Position numbers and translations under genes: made by a program
In this document: in pieces, positions 55,133-60,624 of the stretch
How the letters are laid out: each line of letters begins with the position of its first letter
How positions within the stretch are numbered: position 1 is the stretch's first letter
Assembly (NCBI RefSeq): GCF_000244895.1
Contig: NZ_CM001441.1
Location: 1,756,226-1,820,225, forward strand
Direction of reading: 5' to 3'
Length of the DNA: 64,000 nt
Source of the DNA: Desulfosporosinus youngiae DSM 17734
Lineage (GTDB): Bacteria > Bacillota > Desulfitobacteriia > Desulfitobacteriales > Desulfitobacteriaceae
Notes under the pieces: model-generated
What the model was told of the DNA's origin: nothing
Database searches by the model: none
The model's input: only the letters and a program-made list of their open reading frames with translations

Positions 55133-55546
55133 ATGGATAACGTTGCTGGGAGAGGGATTACTAAAGATACTTTAATGGAGGCTTTAGGAATCCAGGTTGT
55201 GGAACTGAACGAACAGCGGGTTGTGGCAACGATGCCTGTCATGGAAGCAACAAGGCAGCCGTTTGGAATGCTGCATGGGGGAGCCTCGGTAGCTTTGGCG
55301 GAAACGGTTGCCAGCGTGGGAACCTTCAATTTGATCGACCAGGCTAATCAACGAGCGGTAGGGTTAGAGATTAACGCGAATCATATACGTGGCAAGCGAG
55401 ATGGAATCGTTACCGCAGTGGGTATCCCCCTACATAAAGGCCGGACGACAATGGTTTGGGATATTAAAATCATGGATGAAAACGAGAAGTTAATCTGTGT
55501 CTCCAGATGTACCATGGCCATAGTTAATATAAATAGAGAACGTTAA
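55133..55546 (+). CDS. PaaI/YdiI-type hotdog thioesterase
   Basis: A 137-residue hotdog-fold acyl-CoA thioesterase. GMLHGGASVALAET (near residue 45) holds the family's His-Gly-Gly and acidic catalytic positions, with the conserved ANHIRGKRDG later. Members hydrolyse aryl- or acyl-CoA to release CoA. ATG 55133 follows GGGAGG; TTG 55121 precedes the site. It stands alone downstream of the CoA-transferase operon and may relieve CoA trapping during acid catabolism. Confidence 0.88.
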   Translation: MDNVAGRGITKDTLMEALGIQVVELNEQRVVATMPVMEATRQPFGMLHGGASVALAETVASVGTFNLIDQANQRAVGLEINANHIRGKRDGIVTAVGIPLHKGRTTMVWDIKIMDENEKLICVSRCTMAIVNINRER

Positions 55547-55728
55547 GTTTTTGCCATAAAGCAGCGCCGCTTGCCTCCACACAGGTCAGGGGCGTTTAAT
55601 GTTTATTCGCTTCTAGAAAAGGGATTCAATAGCTTACTGTAGAATATTTAAAGAAGCCGAAGTATCACAAGGGATTAATATTGCCATAATTTAAGTAGAT
55701 AGTGATTTAAGGAGTAGACGGGTTAAGG

Positions 55729-56070
55729 ATGAATATTCAAATATTCGGGATTAAGAAATGCTTTGATACTAAGAAAGCTGAACGATATTTTAAAGAGAGA
55801 AAGATAAACTACCAATTGATTGATCTGACCCTAAAAGGCTTGAGCAAAGGTGAATTACAAAGCGTTAAAGGGGCTGTCGGATTAAAAAACCTGATTAATC
55901 CTAACTCTAAGGATTATAAGCGGCTGAATATGGACCGCATAATTTCCGAAAGCGGCAGGGAAGAGCTCTTGTTAAATAATCCCGGTCTTTACAATACCCC
56001 TGTGGTGCGGAATGGGAAACGAGCGACTGTGGGCTATGAACCGGCCATATGGGAGTCCTGGCAAGACTAA
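55729..56070 (+). CDS. ArsC/Spx-family protein
   Basis: A 113-residue thioredoxin-fold protein of the ArsC/YffB/Spx group: FGIKKCFDTKKAERYF at the N-terminus and LYNTPVVRNGKRATVGY near the C-terminus. Only one Cys is in the active loop (KKC), as in YffB/ArsC-like proteins, and the CXXC of Spx is absent. Likely a glutathione- or thiol-dependent reductase or a regulator; arsenate specificity cannot be claimed. ATG 55729 starts the frame. It lies 12 bp before the yceG frame, so it is probably in that operon. Confidence 0.8.
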   Translation: MNIQIFGIKKCFDTKKAERYFKERKINYQLIDLTLKGLSKGELQSVKGAVGLKNLINPNSKDYKRLNMDRIISESGREELLLNNPGLYNTPVVRNGKRATVGYEPAIWESWQD

Positions 56071-56081
56071 AGGAGTGAGAA

Positions 56082-58697
56082 GTTACGGAGACAAGTAAGG
56101 ACAATAGAACTATCTTAAAACAGTCCAATGATATTTTTAAAGACATACTGTCTCCTTTAGCAGAAAGGGGGACTAGTCCCTATACGTATTTTTATCGGAT
56201 CATAGGATACGAGGATCAAAGGGAATATCTGGCGAATATTAAAGAATTAGATGAGAAATTAAAATTAACAGGAAACTATATAGTTTTTGACAAAACTATC
56301 CCGGTCAGCACAGACTCGGTAACCATAGAGCGGGTCAGGAAATTGTTTGAGCCAGCGCCCCTTAAGGATTATAGAAATGGAGCGCTGATTAATGTCTTGG
56401 AATCGAAGGGCTTCTTTTCGGTCAGTTCAGATATTCGGGTCAATCAAAGAATCAAACAAGCATTTGGCATTGTACTTAATCACTATTTAAAGAATGAAAA
56501 ATCCCCAAACTTAAGTATTCTAATGAACTTTTGTACTAAGATTCTGCTTTGGTTTGGAGATTATGGCAAGCATAATCGTAATAAATCGCCCTATAATCCT
56601 AAGGTGATTTATTGGGGAAGCCCTCAAAAACATGAAATTTATTTTCTGATCCTGATGTCTCTCATAGGGTATGATGTGCTTGTTCTGAACACATCTTTTA
56701 AAGATAAGTTCGAGAAAGTAGATAAAGATAATCAGTTTTCGATGGTCATTAAACATTCCAAAGAACTGCTGATCGATGATTTTCCCGGCCGCAAGATTCA
56801 AGAGCAAGAAAATACAAAGACTGATACTAATACTAATACGGCTGCTAAGACCAGGACTGGGACTAGGGCGAACCCGAGTGGACTTGTCCGGCCAGCGTTA
56901 AACAGCGAAACGCCGGTGACGAAAGCTTCTGCTGACGATAGTATACGGCGGGTAGCATCGCCGAAGGAGGAGTCTGTCCCGACCAATCGCGCTTTAAACC
57001 GTCAAAAGGATTTAACGGCCCGCTTGCTGAACGATCCTGTCCTTGTGGTAAAACTGAAGAGAACTGAGAAGATATTTGAGGAAATCCTTGTTCCATTGAA
57101 CAGCAGAACGGGTTATGTGGGTGAGCCTTATCCTATTCTTCCAGCCTATTTCGTACGCTATATCGGAGTACCCAGCTCAACGGATGATTGGGAAGCGGAG
57201 TATTATAATAGTCTTTATAATTTGGACAAAACGTTGCGAATGTCAGGTTTGTATCTGAAATTTTCAGAAGGCATTCCCGCACCCAGTGCGGAGGAAAGTG
57301 CCTTAATTCCTCATAATCTAATCAGTTATGCGTTTCAGGACCGGTTTGAGATTATTGAACAAACTCTGAGGGCCAAGCTGCTTCCTCAAACCTATGATGA
57401 GCTTTTAGACAATACAATCAGAAAAACCTTTGTTGACATAGTCCATCTTTTCGCAGAGAAAAGCAGTAATGCTAATACATCCATCCTCTTAAATTTCTCC
57501 TTAAAACTAATCAGCTGGTTAAACCGATACGTGCCCCAACTATTTCCAAGGCTGAATCGCAACCGGAAATCCGGGAATCCAGGTCAGAATTATGAGCATA
57601 ATCCTAAAGTTTTATTCTATGGACCCATTAAAGCTCATGAGATCTTTCTTCTTACTGCCTTTCACAAGCTGGGATGTGATGTTCTTTATGTTCATTCTGA
57701 GGAAGAAGGAGACAAGCCGTTTCAAAGCTTTGATGAGGAAAATGCCTTAACTCATCTGATTAGAAACAGGCATAATCTATCCCTAGCCCCCTTTCCGCAG
57801 GGAGAGAGATTGATTCGCAAAAGTACTATTGCTTATAATGCATCTAAAGAAATCGAGGAAGTGATCTACAGCGAAGAGGTCGGACTTTTTAAACCGTGGC
57901 AGTTTGAGAGCTATGGCACTCAGCCTATAACCTTGAAAACAACCTATGACGAACTTAAAATACTTTGGAAAGAACCTGTAAAACTCCGGCCGGAGTTCAA
58001 AATTCAGAATAAGAAAGTCTATGTCCCCAACTTATTTGCCAAAATCAATGGAGTCAGCGAGGACCTGAATGACTATTGGCAGGACCTCAAAGAACTTTCC
58101 TCTGCTTCTAATACAAAGCTCATTGAAGCTGTGCCCTTCACAAAAATAACCTATTCCAAACAAGACCTCTATCAGACCAGTTATTTATTGAACAAAAAAG
58201 GGCTTTTAGAAGAATTCGAAGCTGCCAAAAGCCGTCATTACAAGTTTGGGCATCTTAAAGCGCCCTTACAGCATTTTCTAATCGCAAAGATTAATGAACT
58301 GTTATTATCTGAAATGTTCTTAGGAACCGTCGATAAAAAATTTAAACTAAAGATCATAATGACGATCCTGACGATGGATGATGAACTTCTCAGGCTCATT
58401 GAAGTATTTGATTATCCCCAAGAAGTTCCCAAAGTTATTGTTTATGATAATAAAAAAGAAACCTTCACTGAAAGTGATAGTATTATGCTTGCCTATCTTA
58501 ACTTAATTGGGCTTGATATCGTTGTCTTTACGCCTACTAACTATAAAACTATTGAACATTATATTAAGCCGAGTCTTTTTGATTGTCATCAGTTACCGTT
58601 CGTAAAATATGATTTACAGCTTCCTGCTTTAGATAGTATTCAGACGAATCCGACGCCAAAACTTGGGCTTTTGTCTCGTTTGTTCAAACTTCGTTAA
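56082..58697 (+). CDS. yceG: YceG-like toxic-anion resistance protein, three internal repeats, odd start codon
   Basis: An 871-residue reading of a YceG-like protein, found with TelA in tellurite/toxic-anion resistance loci. Three tandem repeats share a strand before a helix: NPKVIYWGSPQKHE, NPKVLFYGPIKAHE and VPKVIVYDNKKE. The first canonical start is TTG 56343, but the frame is open for 87 codons before it. Those codons (YTYFYRIIGYEDQ...) match the start of repeats 2 and 3 (ILPAYFVRYIG, VPNLFAKINGV), so they should be translated. AAAGGAG at 56069-56075 is perfectly spaced for GTT at 56082. Possibly a GTG changed by mutation or sequencing, or a rare start. A low-complexity Thr/Asn linker lies near residue 165 of the 56343 reading. 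Confidence 0.75.
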   Translation, partial: VTETSKDNRTILKQSNDIFKDILSPLAERGTSPYTYFYRIIGYEDQREYLANIKELDEKLKLTGNYIVFDKTIPVSTDSVTIERVRKLFEPAPLKDYRNGALINVLESKGFFSVSSDIRVNQRIKQAFGIVLNHYLKNEKSPNLSILMNFCTKILLWFGDYGKHNRNKSPYNPKVIYWGSPQKHEIYFLILMSLIGYDVLVLNTSFKDKFEKVDKDNQFSMVIKHSKELLIDDFPGRKIQEQENTKTDTNTNTAAKTRTGTRANPSGLVRPALNSETPVTKASADDSIRRVASPKEESVPTNRALNRQKDLTARLLNDPVLVVKLKRTEKIFEEILVPLNSRTGYVGEPYPILPAYFVRYIGVPSSTDDWEAEYYNSLYNLDKTLRMSGLYLKFSEGIPAPSAEESALIPHNLISYAFQDRFEIIEQTLRAKLLPQTYDELLDNTIRKTFVDIVHLFAEKSSNANTSILLNFSLKLISWLNRYVPQLFPRLNRNRKSGNPGQNYEHNPKVLFYGPIKAHEIFLLTAFHKLGCDVLYVHSEEEGDKPFQSFDEENALTHLIRNRHNLSLAPFPQGERLIRKSTIAYNASKEIEEVIYSEEVGLFKPWQFESYGTQPITLKTTYDELKILWKEPVKLRPEFKIQNKKVYVPNLFAKINGVSEDLNDYWQDLKELSSASNTKLIEAVPFTKITYSKQDLYQTSYLLNKKGLLEEFEAAKSRHYKFGHLKAPLQHFLIAKINELLLSEMFLGTVDKKFKLKIIMTILTMDDELLRLIEVFDYPQEVPKVIVYDNKKETFTESDSIMLAYLNLIGLDIVVFTPTNYKTIEHYIKPSLFDCHQLPFVKYDLQLPALDSIQTNPTPKLGLLSRLFKLR

Positions 58698-58756
58698 TCA
58701 TGGGAGAGTGGTTTAAGCGGGTAAGGGTAAAATTTTAGTAATAAGGGGGAAAAAAC

Positions 58757-59881
58757 TTGGAGATTCAAGGATTTACAACAAAGTTAACTGAAGATAAGAG
58801 CCTGGTGCCGGTACAAGTTCCTGACTTTGATCTTGAGAAGCAGAAAAACGAAGTCATGACGAAGGTCATGGACGGCCCTGAAGTACGCAGTATTGTACGG
58901 CAGATCAACATCGAAGATGTAAATTCGATCATGACATTTGGTAAAAATACGGCTGAAGAAGTGTCCAGGTTCTCAGATGCTATTCTTCATTCTATGCAGG
59001 CGACCAAGGTTGAGGATTCAGGGGAACTATTGATTCAGCTTAATAAAATTATGGATAAGTTTGATATCAAAGACTTTAAAGACAAACCACCGGGATTCCT
59101 GGAAAAAATCTTTTCCAAGGCTAAGAATTCCGTTGACGCACTTTTCAAGAAATATAATTCCATGGGTGATGAAGTCGATAAGGTATTTGTTACACTCAAA
59201 AAGTATGAAGCTGAAATCGGCACCGCTAATAGACACCTTGAGGACATGTTTAATAAAAACGTTGAATACTACGAGCAGTTGGGGCAATATATTTATGCCG
59301 GTCAGGTTGTCCTGGCCGAACTGAAAAATAATATCATCCCTACAGCTCAAGCCCAAGCCAATCAGTCGGGAAATCAACTCGATCAAATGAAGGTCAATAA
59401 CCTCTTGCAGGTGCAAGAAATCATGGAACAACGAATCTATGATTTGCAGCTCGCTGAAAATGTCGCTGTCCAAAGCATGCCAACGATTAAAGCCATTGAA
59501 TACGGTAATTATAACTTAGTTCGTAAAATCAACTCCGCTTTTGTCATTACTATGCCGATTTTTAAACAATGTTTGGTCCAGGCCATCATGTTAAAGCGCC
59601 AGTCAGTTCAGGCTAAGGCGATGAGCGCTTTAGATGAGAAGACAAACGAGCTTTTACTTAGAAATGCTGAAAACACAGCGCTTCAATCAAAAATGGTTGC
59701 CAGCCTTGCTACAGGAAGTTCCGTAAATATTGAAACCTTGGAAAAATCCTGGCAGACGATTGTTAAAGGGATTGAAGAAACAAAAGCAATCCAGGAGGAA
59801 ATGAGACAAAAACGCCTGGATGGGACTAAGCGTTTAGAGGTTCTCAAACAAGATTTTGTAAACCGCGGGATCGTCAGGTAA
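58757..59881 (+). CDS. TelA/YaaN-family toxic anion resistance protein
   Basis: A 374-residue, largely helical cytoplasmic protein of the TelA (YceH) family: long coiled-coil-like helices, LQVQEIMEQRIYDLQLAENV and AMSALDEKTNELLLRNAENT. Family members are linked to tellurite and other toxic-anion or antibiotic resistance. TTG 58757 is preceded by AAGGGGG, a little far. The yceG-telA pair is the arrangement known from Bacillus yceG-yceH. A terminator follows. Confidence 0.85.
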   Translation: MEIQGFTTKLTEDKSLVPVQVPDFDLEKQKNEVMTKVMDGPEVRSIVRQINIEDVNSIMTFGKNTAEEVSRFSDAILHSMQATKVEDSGELLIQLNKIMDKFDIKDFKDKPPGFLEKIFSKAKNSVDALFKKYNSMGDEVDKVFVTLKKYEAEIGTANRHLEDMFNKNVEYYEQLGQYIYAGQVVLAELKNNIIPTAQAQANQSGNQLDQMKVNNLLQVQEIMEQRIYDLQLAENVAVQSMPTIKAIEYGNYNLVRKINSAFVITMPIFKQCLVQAIMLKRQSVQAKAMSALDEKTNELLLRNAENTALQSKMVASLATGSSVNIETLEKSWQTIVKGIEETKAIQEEMRQKRLDGTKRLEVLKQDFVNRGIVR

Positions 59882-59892
59882 ACAATAAAACG

Positions 59893-59950
59893 AAAGCGTT
59901 CTCATTTCACTTTGACTCCGGTTTGACAGTGAAATGGGAACGCTTTTTAG
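59893..59950 (+). terminator. Intrinsic terminator after telA
   Basis: 19-bp stem (59893-59911 with 59928-59946; AAAGCGTTCTCATTTCACT in the left arm) with one G-T pair, then TTTTT. The gap to 60103 has no gene. Confidence 0.85.
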
Positions 59951-60103
59951 CGCCCATAATTTTCTGGGGTGAAAAGGAAATATTTTGAATCCAGGTCAGA
60001 CGATTTATAAAAAAACCTGGAATTGCGAAGGCCAATCTTGGCTAATGTGACTTAGGAATATCCATTGTTTTCCAAATAAGTATCGAAAAGCTTAGGTTTA
60101 TAA

Positions 60104-60147
60104 TTGACATTCATATAATTCCGGAGTAATATTCTTCGTGCACGAAG
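60104..60147 (+). promoter_or_regulatory. Promoter and palindromic operator of the MarR-ABC operon
   Basis: TTGACA (60104-60109), 17 bp, TAATAT (60127-60132) form a near-consensus sigma-A promoter. The palindrome CTTCGTGCACGAAG (60134-60147) covers the start-site region, the expected place for MarR repression. Confidence 0.8.
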
Positions 60148-60192
60148 TATTCGCATACAAAGGATATGGGTTGGAAATAAGGAGCTGAGAGA

Positions 60193-60624
60193 ATGGACAC
60201 TTTAAATGAAAGCACAAACGTCGCAAACCTTTTCCGGGAAGTAATGATACTTTTCAGAAACAGTATGGGTAAAGTGTTTGAGAATTCAGGCATAACCCCG
60301 CCGCAAGGTATGGTTCTGGGAATCCTGAGTAAGGAAACTAAACTGAAAATTACTGAACTCAGCAGTAAATTGAGTTTATCCAATAGTACCACATCCGGTA
60401 TTGTGGACAGGCTGGAAAAGCAAGGAATGGTAGAACGAGTCAGAAGTGAAACCGACAGAAGAGTTGTCTATGTTCGGATATCTCCGGAGTTTAAAGAAAT
60501 TCATCAAAGCTTTCATAATCAGTTTGAGAAAAATATTGAAAACGTCATGAGTAAAGGGACTTCAGAAGACTTGGCAAAGATATACGAAGGCTTGAGCACT
60601 CTTAAAAAACTGTTAAGTGATTAA
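60193..60624 (+). CDS. MarR-family transcriptional regulator
   Basis: A 143-residue winged-helix protein: recognition region LSSKLSLSNSTTSGIVDRL and wing RVRSETDRRVVYV, with N- and C-terminal dimerisation helices. Probably binds the palindrome at 60134 and represses its own operon until a drug-like ligand binds. ATG 60193 follows AAGGAG. The ABC exporter gene starts 17 bp after its stop. Confidence 0.92.
   Translation: MDTLNESTNVANLFREVMILFRNSMGKVFENSGITPPQGMVLGILSKETKLKITELSSKLSLSNSTTSGIVDRLEKQGMVERVRSETDRRVVYVRISPEFKEIHQSFHNQFEKNIENVMSKGTSEDLAKIYEGLSTLKKLLSD

Follow-up and report, generated by a model that had tools for sequence, protein, structure and literature searches.

The window, the whole stretch of 64,000 bases that we analysed, covers positions 1756226-1820225 of the genome of Desulfosporosinus youngiae DSM 17734 (G000; complete, a single contig of 5,660,978 bases). 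It contains yceG, a gene for a protein with three YceG_bac repeats, which is flanked by an ArsC-family gene and telA. The open frame of yceG extends from TGA 56076-56078 to TAA 58695-58697, and the first ATG, GTG or TTG within it is TTG 56343. PF14266 matched the YceG protein in three stretches with 423.8 bits, against a gathering cut-off of 25. The features of the locus are as follows:

55729..56070, + strand: ArsC-family gene, 5' neighbour of yceG (PF03960; upstream in 24/24 loci)
56070..56075, + strand: Shine-Dalgarno AAGGAG, 9 bases before ACG (invariant in 13/13 ACG loci, at -15 to -10)
56076..56078, + strand: in-frame TGA closing the frame upstream (at the equal place in 10/13 ACG loci)
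56082..56084, + strand: GTT, proposed earlier as the start; leader, not start (variable in relatives)
56085..56087, + strand: ACG, inferred start codon of yceG (from the start column of 24 distinct loci)
56085..58697, + strand: yceG, 870 amino acids, three YceG_bac repeats (PF14266, E 3e-127, 3 stretches)
56088..56342, + strand: codons 2-86, N-terminal part of repeat 1, lost when TTG 56343 is taken as the start (purifying selection; PF14266 from 56121)
56121-56822, 57060-57869 and 57936-58583, + strand: PF14266 repeats of YceG (profile match converted to window positions)
58757..59881, + strand: telA, 3' neighbour, TTG start in the window genome (PF05816; downstream in 21/24 loci)

The stop codon of the ArsC-family gene and the ribosome site of yceG share one base. 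By its neighbours, YceG belongs with the TelA/toxic-anion genes, in which PF14266 repeats stand beside TelA as they do in the window, and its function is putative; PF14266 also matches in B. subtilis. Set beside the YceG_bac/TelA genes generally, yceG of Desulfosporosinus is distinguished by an apparent ACG start in 13 of 24 loci. The three loci without telA (L012, L031 and L036) are cut by their ends. The telA start itself (58757-58759) is TTG in the window genome as against ATG in the 20 other loci with telA. Within YceG, residues 11-235 of repeat 1 are 32% identical to repeat 2. Rfam gave no match on 55500-60200, and no tandem repeats were found in 55700-60000. An AlphaFold model of repeat 1 had a mean pLDDT of 55.8 and was not used.

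We compared the start of yceG in 24 distinct Desulfosporosinus loci, obtained from a contig scan (12 loci) and from whole-genome searches after repeated genomes and fragments had been removed. The whole-genome searches gave a match in 27 of 60 genomes and in 23 of the 29 genomes of the genus (the window's own genome is included in both counts), and all 12 named relatives found were Desulfosporosinus. Four distant homologues (L037-L040), which are unaligned at the N-terminus, do not enter this count of starts. All 24 loci have the N-terminal region, and the start column reads ACG in 13, ATG in seven and GTG in four, preceded by a ribosome site at a corresponding spacing. In 10 of the 13 ACG loci an in-frame TGA precedes the ACG by three codons, with two codons between, neither of them constant. 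The remaining three (L026, L008 and L010, the last from D. hippei) have GGA instead of this TGA, and their frame is open upstream with an in-frame ATG or TTG 12-24 codons before the ACG. Inside the gene, the first ATG, GTG or TTG of the 13 ACG loci is found at codon offsets 86, 70, 66, 24, 66, 61, 10, 10, 24, 24, 24, 24 and 19, and no such downstream place is common to all of them.

An earlier note on this DNA had claimed that coding in the yceG frame begins before any ATG, GTG or TTG, and at the level of sequence comparison this observation is confirmed as real and not an artefact. There is indeed no normal start codon that could serve the extension, the residues before TTG 56343 form part of the first of the three repeats, and homologues that start at the TTG position with no upstream repeat, which the note had named as a reason to abandon the claim, account for 0 of the 24 loci. 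Between the window and ten other loci, pN/pS of codons 2-86 was 0.24-0.39 (0.24-0.31 for the comparisons with seven of the 12 other ACG loci), which is near the 0.20-0.28 of the rest of yceG and slightly higher. By this measure, codons 2-86 evolve as protein.

The note had further taken GTT 56082 as the start, possibly one base change away from a normal start codon and to be checked by resequencing, and this part does not hold. The ribosome site AAAGGAG is present as described (56069-56075), 6 bases before GTT 56082 and 9 before ACG 56085. At the position of GTT, the 13 ACG loci have 10 different codons (GTT, AGT, GAT, GAA, GGT, CAT, TGT, GCT, AAT and CGT), and this variability rules out GTT as a start, mutated or not. 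It is the next codon, ACG, that is invariant in 13/13 and aligned with the ATG or GTG of the other 11 loci. A sequencing error behind the ACG is untenable because the codon is identical in 13 separate genomes. In this alignment the conserved coding region begins at ACG 56085 and excludes GTT 56082, one codon away from the place given in the note. We are confident, short of certainty, that yceG starts at ACG 56085.

The conservation of ACG is that of a codon and not merely of a residue. In the part of the gene covered by all 13 ACG loci (L036 and L012 run off their ends), a single codon was kept in none of the 49 four-fold columns with a conserved residue, in none of the 10 Thr columns, and in 19 of all 192 conserved columns. 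Within the 11 members of the main ACG clade, two four-fold columns out of 55 kept a single codon, and one of the two was a Thr column. Between ACG loci, a median of 61% of four-fold sites differ, and the third base of the ACG shows no variation in the 13 loci. The ACG is fixed while four-fold columns vary; therefore, the codon itself is constrained. Its second base is C in 13/13. Among the 52 two-fold C/T columns of the same loci, none was C throughout and nine were T throughout, so that there was plenty of opportunity for the ACG to become ATG by a C-to-T change. As far as an alignment can tell, these comparisons show that ACG is held fixed at the codon level, beyond the residue.

Around the start, the positions invariant in the 13 ACG loci are -15 to -10 (AAGGAG), -8 to -6 (GAG) and 0 to +4 (ACGGA), and none is invariant from -30 to -16. 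The AAGGAG hexamer is present in 13/13 ACG loci versus 1/11 other loci. With an assumed 16S tail, the duplex energy of the site in the window is -10.8 kcal/mol, and the median energies of -10.8 for the ACG loci and -11.7 for the ATG/GTG loci, obtained with the same tail, do not differ (p 0.46). Compensation of the ACG by a stronger ribosome site is unsupported, despite the contrast in the hexamer, because the duplex energies do not differ between the groups and the loci are related. When the 24 leaders were folded one by one, the middle parts of the folds, compared by eye, showed no common hairpin.

In a protein tree built without the start residue, 11 of the ACG loci form a clade (support 99/98); the remaining two pair together at an uncertain position beside an ATG clade of four. 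The fewest changes between ACG and a normal start on this tree is two, and only one is needed in 26% of 200 bootstrap trees. Two changes mean that ACG either arose twice or arose once and later reverted to ATG, and hence the state would not be irreversible. A normal start was probably ancestral for yceG, because the homologue in G072, a genome of the same order but another family, has the N-terminal repeat and an in-frame TTG behind a G-rich site.

The start might be sought elsewhere in the frame, with the region around ACG conserved for another reason. On the downstream side, TTG 56343 is the first ATG, GTG or TTG and ATC 56112 the first codon of the wider table 11 list. We consider a start at either highly improbable, given that codons 2-86 evolve as protein and that the first ATG, GTG or TTG lies anywhere from codon 10 to codon 86 in the ACG loci. 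Moreover, PF14266 begins at 56121, and a start at TTG 56343 would therefore remove the first 74 codons of the first repeat. The place of ATC 56112, by ungapped count, is taken in the 12 other ACG loci by GTC or GTT in 10, AAC in L030 and ATT in L036. A true start further upstream, or entry into the frame from the ArsC-like gene by readthrough or frameshifting, would suit L026, L010 and L008, whose frame is open with an ATG or TTG at -12 to -24 codons. This reading is hardly tenable for the ACG loci as a group, as 10 of the 13 have the upstream TGA, the codon directly before the ACG varies, and the start codon lies anywhere between 16 and 123 bases behind the end of the ArsC-like match. The ACG could also be changed to AUG in the mRNA by C-to-U editing, as in plant chloroplasts. 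Chloroplast ACG starts resemble that of yceG in that ACG stands in start position in a bacterial-type translation system, and according to PMC9845219, which describes such start editing, they are commonly edited to AUG. An edited site would also be expected to show a fixed C where sister species have ATG. Direct near-cognate initiation with a good ribosome site, however, requires nothing extra, and we give editing very little credence.

Two further readings accept ACG as the start and explain its persistence differently. The motif ACGGA might be kept as a CsrA-type (ANGGA) site, paired with another within the ribosome site, so that the start codon is held only as a by-product. AAGGA and ACGGA (within 56070-56089), which we take to resemble a pair of such sites, are invariant in 13/13 ACG loci, and CsrA was matched in 25 of the 29 genus genomes. 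We nevertheless regard this reading as improbable: G023, a 94% complete genome in which yceG likewise has ACG, gave no CsrA match, the GTG loci do without the motif, ATGGA would fit equally, and ACG would still have to be the start. The other possibility is that ACG is a mildly harmful accident, tolerated without benefit, and it departs from the reading we prefer only on why the codon was kept. A good ribosome site may hold expression at an adequate level, and the change has at most a few origins. A single transition would restore ATG and synonymous sites are far diverged, yet there is no return to ATG or GTG in the 11-member clade, and we find a tolerated accident unlikely, although it deserves some weight. 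We favour the view that ACG is a genuine, long-maintained weak start that probably lowers YceG synthesis. The absence of any return to ATG, with synonymous sites so far diverged, also argues that the weakness itself was favoured, a point on which we hold the arguments to be about evenly balanced.

Other near-cognate starts were sought in 800 kb each of G000 and G007, a baseline that detects only starts with a noticeably long coding extension. Of 378 ortholog pairs (including at least four rRNA-region ORFs), 308 had normal starts that were aligned and preceded by a ribosome site in both genomes and 70 did not, and in 13 of the 70 the first normal start in G000 was at least 12 codons inside the aligned region. 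By eye, the convincing near-cognate starts among these 13 were those of yceG, of a YabQ homologue (ATC) and of a glycosyltransferase-like gene (CTG). Four pairs were discarded as lying in 23S rRNA (G000 112244, 129991, 165608 and 1632964), and three as alignments apparently running into leaders or neighbouring genes (64186, 102003 and 274827); likewise by eye, 356238 looked like a repeat ORF, 1983151 like a frameshift and 1739777 like an in-frame TAG. In the control, 28 codon types were aligned behind a ribosome-like site in both genomes, in 1-4 of the 70 pairs each, and ACG was so placed in two, yceG and a 23S rRNA ORF (G000 165608). Since 28 codon types behave alike, the scan alone does not single out ACG, and the case rests on the column of 24 loci.

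Two of the discarded pairs showed features of their own. At G000:C1 about 1983151 (L091), a long gene that is 94% identical to its G007 ortholog has its start out of frame by a one-base length difference, which is either a sequencing error or a real frameshift. At G000:C1 about 1739777 (L078), G000 and G007 share an in-frame TAG that immediately precedes a well conserved C-terminal region, in a gene that we presume to resemble a pyrrolysine methyltransferase.

The start column of yabQ (PF09578; G000:C1:82494-83000, L156) reads ATC in 27 and ATT in one of the 28 genomes matched among the 29 of the genus, and the gene has a strong ribosome site. Among 30 yabQ loci of the order, nine of them from the genus, many of the others have ATT or ATA without a nearby upstream ATG, GTG or TTG; L217, L220 and L230 have ATG or TTG upstream. 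The glycosyltransferase-like gene (G000:C1:343532-344638, L184) has CTG in 12, TTG in eight and ATG in four of 24 ortholog-level genus loci, the other five of the 29 genomes having given only fragments or distant relatives. In these alignments near-cognate starts recur in the genus, and of the three codons concerned only ACG is outside the table 11 start list.

A simple route to initiation can be proposed. The AAGGAG 9 bases upstream would position the 30S subunit at ACG 56085, where the ordinary initiator tRNA would read the codon with a second-position mismatch; the expected first residue of the protein would then be formyl-methionine. The normal initiator arm was found as an exact pattern in 28 of the 29 genus genomes. 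A dedicated initiator tRNA with a CGU anticodon was not found: the exact 13-base pattern of a CGT-anticodon initiator arm, which a diverged arm would escape, had 0/13 matches in the ACG genomes, and its single match among the 29 genus genomes, some of which are incomplete, was in G027, whose yceG starts with ATG. Judging from the weakness of the start, initiation at ACG would be inefficient and less YceG would be made. Near-cognate codons such as ACG are discriminated against by IF3, and the clade may keep this one because it is advantageous to make little of the large YceG protein, perhaps in an IF3-sensitive way, compared with the ArsC-like and TelA neighbours.

Precedents for such starts are found in E. 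coli, where infC and pcnB have an AUU start which, like that of yceG, is a near-cognate codon behind a ribosome site, and there it limits expression. The AUU of infC mediates autocontrol by IF3. The mismatch of AUU in infC and pcnB is at the third position, whereas that of ACG in yceG is at the second, and yceG is not known to act on translation. Non-ATG starts are conserved in lacI and other sugar regulators of Enterobacteriaceae, and an ATG allele of lacI is reported to be at a disadvantage early in gut colonization (PMC11445065). That case stresses GTG, a normal bacterial start, which ACG is not. Model mRNAs with aug, auu and acg starts are listed for IF3 kinetics in PMC8266586. Going by titles and the beginnings of abstracts, the literature matches on ACG starts were organelle, viral and eukaryotic, and none among the matches listed concerned a conserved bacterial ACG start; this is weak evidence, as the subscription literature lies mostly outside the search. 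The ACG of yceG would belong with the conserved near-cognate starts of bacteria, a known kind.

Table 11 does not list ACG among its starts, so gene callers limited to ATG, GTG and TTG would truncate YceG by 10 to 86 codons, depending on the genome, in those loci whose frame is closed upstream. We tentatively suggest, with more doubt than conviction, that yceG (ACG), yabQ (ATC) and the glycosyltransferase gene (CTG) keep their near-cognate starts as hard-wired translational attenuators, possibly tuned together by IF3 under stress or in sporulation, and that ACG is a working, selected start which listed-start gene callers cannot call. That this codon has stayed the same through the divergence of synonymous sites is evidence, of a comparative kind, that a weak start can be retained by bacteria and is perhaps even preferred. 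The ACG of yceG may offer a natural system for asking why near-cognate starts persist and whether the levels of initiation factors regulate a set of genes by way of such starts.
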